Assembly (NCBI GenBank): GCA_022821965.1
Contig: JAJECN010000019.1
Coordinates: forward strand, 1-51,468
Direction: 5' to 3'
DNA: 51,468 nt
Source: Candidatus Poribacteria bacterium
Lineage (GTDB): Bacteria; Poribacteria; WGA-4E; WGA-3G
The position numbers and the translations under genes were made by a program. The notes beneath the pieces were generated by a model, which was given only the letters and a program-made list of their open reading frames with translations, did no database searches and was not told the origin of the DNA. Below, piece after piece: positions 31,285 to 39,045 of the stretch (position 1 is its first letter; every line of letters starts with the position of its first letter).

Positions 31285-32034
31285 TTATTTCGCGCGTTTC
31301 TTAAAGTCAGCACTTGTAAAGTTTACGGCGATATCACCACTTGCTGGCACTTCAATCGTTTTGTTCGCTGAACCGAGTTCTTCATGCCATGCGACGACAC
31401 GCACTCTACCGGCTGGCACATCAGCGATCGAATAATTGCCGGTATCCGCAGATTTTTCGTAGTCATCGGAACTAATCCATGCGCCATCAGCATCCTTGTA
31501 ACCAGTGACAGTGAAAAAGTCATTGGGAACAGCAACGATGTAGCCGGTCATCCAAGCATGAATATCGCATGTGAACTTAATATTTTCAACCTTTTCGATT
31601 TTGTGCGGGATAACTTTGCCGGGCTGCGGAATCTGATAGTTTATCGCGTTATTCTTTTTCGCGTGAGAATGCACATTATGGGCAATCGGATCACTGGAGG
31701 TAATATCAACGGTAGAACCAGCAACAACCGCAAGAACGTGTGGGTAGTAAGCGCACCCCTTTTGATCCATAACCGGGTTCTTATCCGGGACGGTAGGTTT
31801 TGCACCACGAACGCGGGCGTAAATAACAACGTTCTTGATGCCTTTGCCTTTTGAGACAACGAGTGCTTCGGACTTTGTGCCTTTTACAGTGTCAATGCAA
31901 TGCTGGTCTTTGGTCGCAGTCAAGGCGGGACGTGCTGGTGCATCACCATCATACATTACAGTACCGGTGATAGTGCCCGCAAACGCAACACTCGTCAACA
32001 CCCCAAAGGCGAGCAAAGCAACTACGATTTTCAT
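31285..32034 (-). CDS. Cupredoxin-like exported protein, copy A
   Basis: 249 residues with a signal peptide (KIVVALLAFGVLTSVAFA). The architecture is the same as the gene at 24168: GTVMYDGDAPARP opening, cupredoxin-like core with His in AHNVHSH, and CDIHAWM supplying Cys, His and Met ligands, then a carboxypeptidase-regulatory-like end (GNYSIADVPAGRVRVVAWHEELG). A periplasmic copper electron carrier is likely. AGAGGAG lies seven bases before ATG. The transcript probably begins at the perfect promoter at 32357-32384 and crosses an IS200/IS605-like end. Confidence 0.8.
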   Translation of the reverse strand: MKIVVALLAFGVLTSVAFAGTITGTVMYDGDAPARPALTATKDQHCIDTVKGTKSEALVVSKGKGIKNVVIYARVRGAKPTVPDKNPVMDQKGCAYYPHVLAVVAGSTVDITSSDPIAHNVHSHAKKNNAINYQIPQPGKVIPHKIEKVENIKFTCDIHAWMTGYIVAVPNDFFTVTGYKDADGAWISSDDYEKSADTGNYSIADVPAGRVRVVAWHEELGSANKTIEVPASGDIAVNFTSADFKKRAK

Positions 32035-32089
32035 GATTTTTCTCCTCTATAGTTTAAATTTAACCTGTAATATATTAACACCACAGGAT

Positions 32090-32352
32090 TTGACACTCCC
32101 ACACCTAAAGGAGTGGGATTCTTGCTTCGTCGTTTCGTGCCTTACCAAGTAAGGTCTTACAGAAACTCCACAAGCGTTTTGTCTCTCGGTATGCCCTACC
32201 GCGAGGAAAGTAAAAGTTTTTGAATGTAAGCAGGGGGTTGCTAAATTATAGCAATATGATTTGGTGTTCTCTGCTTAACATTCGTGGGTACTACTCACAA
32301 CCTACGGCAATAGGCGTGGCGCGATTGCCGTCCCACCACTTGTAAGCAGTAA
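32090..32352 (-). ncRNA. IS200/IS605-like right end, possible structured leader or omega-RNA-like transcript
   Basis: Read on the minus strand, the segment ends GAATCCCACTCCTTTAGG...GTGTCAA at 32090, the form of IS200/IS605 right ends: a subterminal hairpin (CCCAC/GTGGG at 32117-32098) then TCAA. Upstream are three perfect or near-perfect hairpins: CCTTAC/GTAAGG (32154-32140), CGGTA/TACCG (32205-32185) and CGGCAAT/ATTGCCG (32330-32305). A consensus promoter lies just ahead. No tnpB or tnpA frame survives. It is either a decayed element reused as the leader of the cupredoxin gene or a free RNA. The omega-RNA comparison is inference. Confidence 0.5.
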
Positions 32353-32356
32353 TATA

Positions 32357-32384
32357 ATTATACTATATTTCCGTGCATTGTCAA
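32357..32384 (-). promoter_or_regulatory. Perfect sigma-70-type promoter (minus strand)
   Basis: TTGACA (32384-32379) and TATAAT (32362-32357) are exact consensus boxes with a 16-base spacer. Transcription would begin near 32350, reading through the IS605-like segment to the cupredoxin and CydA-like genes. Confidence 0.75.
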
Positions 32385-32515
32385 GTTTTTTTGATACCAG
32401 CACGGGCGATACGGGGTTGGACCCAAAGCTAAAGCATTGGGATTGTCAGTTAATTCCCTTCAAAATGGAAACAAAAAGACCTAAAATTTTCACTAAATTT
32501 TCTAAAGCCTTATCA

Positions 32516-32612
32516 AGACTTACGCAAACCCCAATCCCCTGCTGGCGAGGTTGAAAACCTCGCCAGCGGCACATCACACGTGGGATATCATAGGAAAATT
32601 GCCTAAGTCCTA
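32516..32612. mobile_element. AGGACTTACGCA-family MITE, copy A
   Basis: A 97-base element with ends AAGACTTACGCAAA and, inverted, TAGGACTTAGGCAAT. A perfect 12 bp GCTGGCGAGGTT palindrome (32541-32567) sits inside it. The family recurs at 44074-44196 and 47525-47643. Confidence 0.6.
32541..32567. repeat. REP-like palindrome, GGCGAGGTT family
   Basis: GCTGGCGAGGTT and AACCTCGCCAGC form a perfect 12 bp stem around GAA. It lies 58 bases downstream of the cytochrome c gene stop at 32625 and inside a MITE-like element. Confidence 0.75.
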
Positions 32613-38582: not shown

Positions 38583-39045
38583 GAATCAAAACTAAATCGC
38601 ATATATTATAAATCAGTTCTAAATAAATGTCACCAAAATCTTTTTGCATCTGAAAGTCTGTTTTGCACAAACAGCACACATGCATCAATTCCAGATTGGT
38701 TCGATTAAAAGAGCATAAAAGTTACCCAAAGCAATTTTCGCGCCATGAGCGTTAATTATTATAACATGTCTTCAAAAGTTTGTCAACCATTTTTTAAATT
38801 TTTTCACAGAATTTTTTAAAAATTACAAGTGAACACCTCCTTTCTTTTCGATCAACCTCTTAAAGGACTGCAAAGCTTAGTAAAACCGACAGATCCAATA
38901 GGAAATCGTGGAGATCAACCACTCAATTTGTAACGAAACGAGCAAAATTTTGTTCAATTCTTCAAGGATCTATGATACAATCTACCCGACGATTTCCCAG
39001 TTTGCAGGTATCAAGAACCAACAACCCAACGACGGAGGAGCCAAG
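38583..39045. other. AT-rich divergent intergenic region
   Basis: It contains the Rieske operon promoter (38758-38786), an A/T-rich tract (38790-38830) and, near 38976-38981, a TACAAT box that may serve the LamG gene, though its -35 region is poor. No gene is seen. Confidence 0.5.
38758..38786 (-). promoter_or_regulatory. Perfect sigma-70-type promoter of the Rieske/cytochrome b operon
   Basis: On the minus strand TTGACA (38786-38781) and TATAAT (38763-38758) are exact consensus boxes with the optimal 17-base spacer. Transcription would start near 38751, giving a leader of about 170 bases. Confidence 0.8.

Follow-up and report, generated by a model that had tools for sequence, protein, structure and literature searches.

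The 51,468-nt stretch of Candidatus Poribacteria DNA analysed here (hereafter the window) comes from a sponge-symbiont bacterium and contains a small mobile element, and the explanation that, taken as a whole, we hold with high confidence is that this is a non-autonomous, internally deleted IS200/IS605 element of the IS1341 type, PATE-like and with nearly all of tnpB lost. Most likely the element makes a solo guide RNA that TnpB could use in trans, and it may also drive the gene behind it, which a first-pass annotation had called a cupredoxin.

An element with two ends and no TnpB

Read on the minus strand from 32462, the element shows in order a left palindrome, a promoter and a folded stretch; a short remnant similar to the 3' end of tnpB follows, then a scaffold of three stems and, last, the terminal hairpin (Table 1). 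The first-pass annotation had recognised an IS200/IS605-type right end with an omega-RNA scaffold, which is borne out by the terminal hairpin followed by TCAA (the end reads TGTCAA at 32090), by homologous ends elsewhere and by covariation across 30 sequences. It had taken this for an orphan end, having missed the left end and its palindrome; we find instead a complete element, absent from an empty-site allele in sister species. The ends occur again in four other copies within the genome, and this recurrence together with the covarying scaffold is more than chance would produce. Because AA is common to both sides, the boundary is uncertain by 1-3 bases. As annotated, the TnpB frame is gone apart from its short 3'-end-like tail; the longest stop-to-stop frame is 61 codons, and the element has no transposase or TnpB of its own. 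On the minus strand the region folds better than 200 of 200 shuffles (z -4.9). A GC-rich hairpin (CCCTGCTGGCGAGGTTGAAAACCTCGCCAGCGGC, plus strand) lies close upstream of the element at 32537-32571, and a similar one is found in L075 near 1340-1370.

The annotated promoter is an exact TTGACA-N16-TATAAT on the minus strand, a form for which 0.04 exact matches are expected in a window of such composition. Its origin lies in tnpB: many full copies across the genus carry a TTGAC..TATAAT-type promoter ahead of tnpB, 73-81 nt from the left end, and the TnpB-less relatives (minis) in G020 and G035 have one at the same place. Since full copies carry this promoter ahead of tnpB, the window element corresponds to the tnpB promoter, leader and scaffold with the coding core deleted. 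A TTGACA on the plus strand at 32090 was rejected as a promoter, because it is the right-end TGTCAA read on the opposite strand. Elsewhere in the window, a second exact consensus promoter (TTGACA-N17-TATAAT) lies at 38758-38786 on the minus strand.

Table 1. Features of the TnpB-less element and its surroundings
Feature	Position	Strand	Details and basis
Whole TnpB-less element	32090..32462	minus	Left end 32462, right end 32090; ~373 bp
Left-end subterminal palindrome CCCAATGCTTTAGCTTTGGG	32422..32441	minus	Sequence; conserved among copies
tnpB-type promoter TTGACA-N16-TATAAT	32357..32384	minus	Exact match; same place in full copies
Likely tnpB 5' leader remnant	32271..32349	minus	Position after promoter; architecture descriptor
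Remnant P1, 5' strand	32342-32349	minus	Two partners, 32291-32298 and 32271-32279
Remnant P2	32332-32339 with 32316-32323	minus	
Remnant pseudoknot	32324-32330 with 32305-32311	minus	
Third complementary segment CTGCTTACATTC	32222..32233	minus	Pairs with 32271-32279; covaried form in the G020 mini
Right-end omega-RNA scaffold	32090..32208	minus	H1 32183-32205; H2 32132-32166; H3 32095-32119 (right-end palindrome); then TCAA
Terminal hairpin and TCAA	32119..32090	minus	
Predicted guide position, host sequence ATCCTGTGGTGTTAATATAT	32070..32089	minus	Follows TCAA; rule from ISDra2 (PMC8612924)
Host upstream block	32467..32472	minus	GTTTCC here, ATTTGC in most orthologues; the insertion lies between it and its -10
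Host extended -10-like box TGTTAATAT	32072..32080	minus	Conserved in orthologues; downstream of the insertion; putative promoter role
Downstream gene	31285..32034	minus	ORF; 249-aa protein, apparently with a signal peptide; its start codon is 55 bases past the element

Among the relatives in the same genome, C49 and C28 are full TnpB copies whose ends are homologous to those of the window element (right ends 83% and 70% identical, respectively), and C36 and C57 are further minis, both lacking the promoter; the exact sublineage of the window element is present as a single copy. Comparison with an intact copy, which the annotation had proposed as a test, rests on C49, and at 83% right-end identity it does not refute the annotation. 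In C49 the TnpB has its full length and its Pfam domains, and no inactivation was seen in it. Its close named matches (63-79% identity) are all from Candidatus Poribacteria, and others, from other phyla, reach 31-39%. Y1_Tnp, the transposase type that would mobilise such an element in trans, has four matches in the genome, one of them next to a TnpB on C47. Across the genus, full copies mostly measure 1374-1491 bp, and most copies start TGAAGGG preceded by A or T.

TnpB-less relatives are also found in other genomes. That in G020 (363 bp) sits at an unrelated site, is 78% identical over its full length, promoter included, and retains promoter and scaffold. In G034, three ~505-bp relatives (L171, L172, L173) are 99.8% identical and occupy more than one site, although two of the three have common flanks and may represent one segmental duplication. 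G036 contains a 536-bp pair at more than one site (L174 and L175, 98.7% identical) and a ~600-bp pair at two sites (L137 and L138, ~97% identical) in which most of tnpB is deleted and leader and scaffold are kept. Near-identical copies at several sites (97-99.8%) indicate that TnpB-less forms do spread. L171-L173 and L174-L175 have the same left end, promoter and leader-like pseudoknot, with ~250 nt of non-coding, apparently structured sequence in place of the usual scaffold.

Right-end scaffold and tnpB leader

Both the further copies and the covariation for which the annotation had suggested searching were found. Over 25 scaffold pairs in 30 right ends, the window's among them, 96.5% of pairs are standard and nine show compensatory changes; slid controls are 39-58% paired. 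The window scaffold is fully paired, its stem H2 carries changes peculiar to it, and the structure is common to it and to TnpB-linked right ends. Covariance model R2 gives it 130.8 bits, a score for one of the model's own training rows. Across five genomes, 18 of 46 scaffolds have no TnpB domain upstream. The annotated omega-RNA-like fold is supported for this right-end scaffold; the hairpins upstream are most likely not omega-RNA but what remains of a tnpB 5' leader.

By the ISDra2 rule host sequence from 32089 onward would serve as the guide, ahead of the downstream gene as the annotation had placed it, and the candidate target is TTTTGAA-ATCCTGTGGTGTTAAT. Elsewhere in its own genome, no second TGA-preceded guide match was found at one mismatch or fewer. 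The window matched nothing in Rfam, including RAGATH-18 (the IS607 TnpB guide), for which L137 and L075 score 29.8 and 27.9 bits against a gathering score of 44.9. A scan of the window and its relatives gave no Rfam hit at gathering score and none convincing below it.

Of all the parts, the leader RNA that lies between the promoter and the start of tnpB least resembles anything in Rfam, where it has no match, or in the literature searched. Fourteen distinct leaders share stems P1, P2 and P3 and a pseudoknot with 97.4% of cells paired, and 17 of 25 pairs show compensatory changes (slid controls, 27-41%). The 5' strand of P1 has two tandem 3' partners that covary equally well, the second just before the start codon, which suggests two exclusive states that would control tnpB translation. 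Covariance model R1 has between 2 and 52 matches in every one of the genus's 38 genomes and matches 3 of the 21 genera of the phylum; it did not match eight TnpB loci from outside Poribacteria. In five genomes with 120 TnpB genes, 92 of 107 R1 matches precede a TnpB domain, in nearly every case by 470-670 nt. Our literature search, which covered few subscription papers, returned no report of standalone guide RNAs or of tnpB leader riboswitches.

The folded stretch of the window element is likely a remnant of this leader, given its position after the promoter, the comparison with G020, in which the three complementary segments change together, and a shuffle test. The architecture descriptor used in that test, composed after the three sequences had been seen, matches the window, G020 and G035 minis and 0, 1 and 0 of 3000 shuffles, respectively. 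R1 and R3 (trained on seven complete tnpB leaders, minis left out) gave no significant match to the window leader, R3 none even with filters off, so we call its identity likely.

Leaders also occur before other genes. A complete tnpB-type leader directly precedes a gene for a 123-aa secreted-type protein (L150:1457-1557, minus), and a weaker case, which fails the strict descriptor, lies at L146:1437-1532 (minus). The genes behind the two encode secreted-type coiled-coil proteins of 121-123 aa unrelated to TnpB, and a search ahead of both leaders for a left end gave no convincing match.

Insertion site and possible functions

Sister species have no element at the orthologous locus. In L028 and L029, with 94-95% identity on the downstream side, the two flanks meet at a CATTTTG(A/G)AATCC junction without duplication, indicating clean insertion. 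The target was a TTGA(A) site lying between two conserved blocks upstream of the downstream gene. In the nearest sisters the TAM beside the unoccupied site is TTGG, not TTGA, which counts against our explanation. A TTTGC-type block lies upstream of GTTAATATATT in 22 of 24 orthologues, and its spacing to GTTAA is exactly 18 nt in 20 of them; the spacing of 22 in L032 and L035 reflects a block picked up 4 nt further upstream. Judged by this conservation, the paired blocks are probably the native promoter of the gene. The gene belongs to a respiratory cluster; against Pfam its product gave a weak sub-threshold domain only, which leaves the cupredoxin name unconfirmed.

TnpB is thought to aid the persistence of IS605-type elements through cleavage of the empty site. 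In the reading we prefer, the inherited tnpB promoter would give a transcript that includes the omega-RNA scaffold and continues into host sequence as a guide. A related TnpB, such as that of C49, could act in trans, binding and trimming this RNA and so protecting the insertion against the empty allele. Recognition by the C49 TnpB is uncertain given the 17% divergence of the right ends and the single copy of the sublineage. Processing of this kind has a precedent in cis, where omega-RNA comes from TnpB's own mRNA via 5' processing by TnpB (PMC10278001). The same transcript could run on into the downstream gene, toward which the element's promoter points, and replace the disrupted native promoter. 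Against the preferred reading stand the possible -10 box that persists in host sequence downstream and the failure of R1 and R3 to detect the window leader.

It is possible, though we lean against it, that the promoter, leader and scaffold are merely decaying without function after the jump or a later deletion. The single-copy state of the sublineage and the loss of the promoter from C36 and C57 fit such a dead remnant, as do passages on Haloquadratum IS605 elements in which core deletions are frequent (PMC3119063), but the promoter here is an exact consensus, the scaffold is fully paired and has H2 changes of its own, and the G020 relative has retained both at another site. Plausible, but on balance less likely than not, is that the element has instead been co-opted solely to give the downstream gene a promoter and a structured leader, without serving as a guide. 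The element has come between the conserved blocks, the farther of which is altered, and its promoter aims at a gene whose start codon is 55 bases away; yet the insertion is young, being absent from near sisters, so selection for such a role is not demonstrable, and the native -10-like box is intact downstream of the element, leaving a possible -10 in host sequence. The altered block (TTTCC for TTTGC) proves nothing alone, since the element-less orthologue L045 likewise has TTTCC.

A further reading is TldR-like, with the RNA guiding a relative of TnpB in the repression of a host gene. It would call for a scaffold under its own promoter and TnpB genes in the genome, both of which are present. 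We regard this as highly improbable, as the guide has no second TGA-preceded target in its own genome at up to one mismatch and the C49 TnpB looks like an intact, full-length protein with its domain families.

Returning to the preferred reading of a guide RNA used in trans, we tentatively propose a wider picture for Poribacteria, in which a bistable pseudoknot leader exerts riboswitch-like control over tnpB, TnpB-less elements like the one here retain leader and guide scaffold under the tnpB promoter and act as solo guide-RNA parasites that rely on a resident TnpB for upkeep, and host genes occasionally acquire the leader. If true, a TnpB-less element with a promoter-driven scaffold would mean that upkeep can be shared in trans, and transposition would scatter guide RNAs into host leaders. 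The leader itself, a compact and strongly covarying RNA with two exclusive pairings by the tnpB start codon, offers a lead on how expression of guide-directed nucleases is controlled.

Comparison with known systems

The window element fits the kind described in passages on the PATEs (palindrome-associated transposable elements) of Haloquadratum (PMC3119063). It differs from the PATEs of those passages, which do not discuss promoter or guide function, in keeping tnpB promoter, leader and scaffold in order, as a ready guide-RNA transcription unit. The ORF-less IStrons of Bacillus cereus (PMC4227781) are likewise IS605-related and spread after ORF loss with a structured RNA kept; theirs is a self-splicing group I intron, whereas Rfam finds none in the window element or its relatives. 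As in ISDra2 (PMC8612924), the scaffold spans the tnpB 3' end and the right end, the guide would come from flanking DNA and the target is of TTGA type, but TnpB is present in cis there and absent from the window element. The tnpB leader recalls the tnpA 5' leader and 5'tnpA small RNA of Salmonella IS200 (PMC12594629), also a structured 5' leader near a ribosome-binding site. That leader is a simple stem-loop on tnpA, whereas the Poribacterial tnpB leader forms a pseudoknot with two alternative P1 partners.
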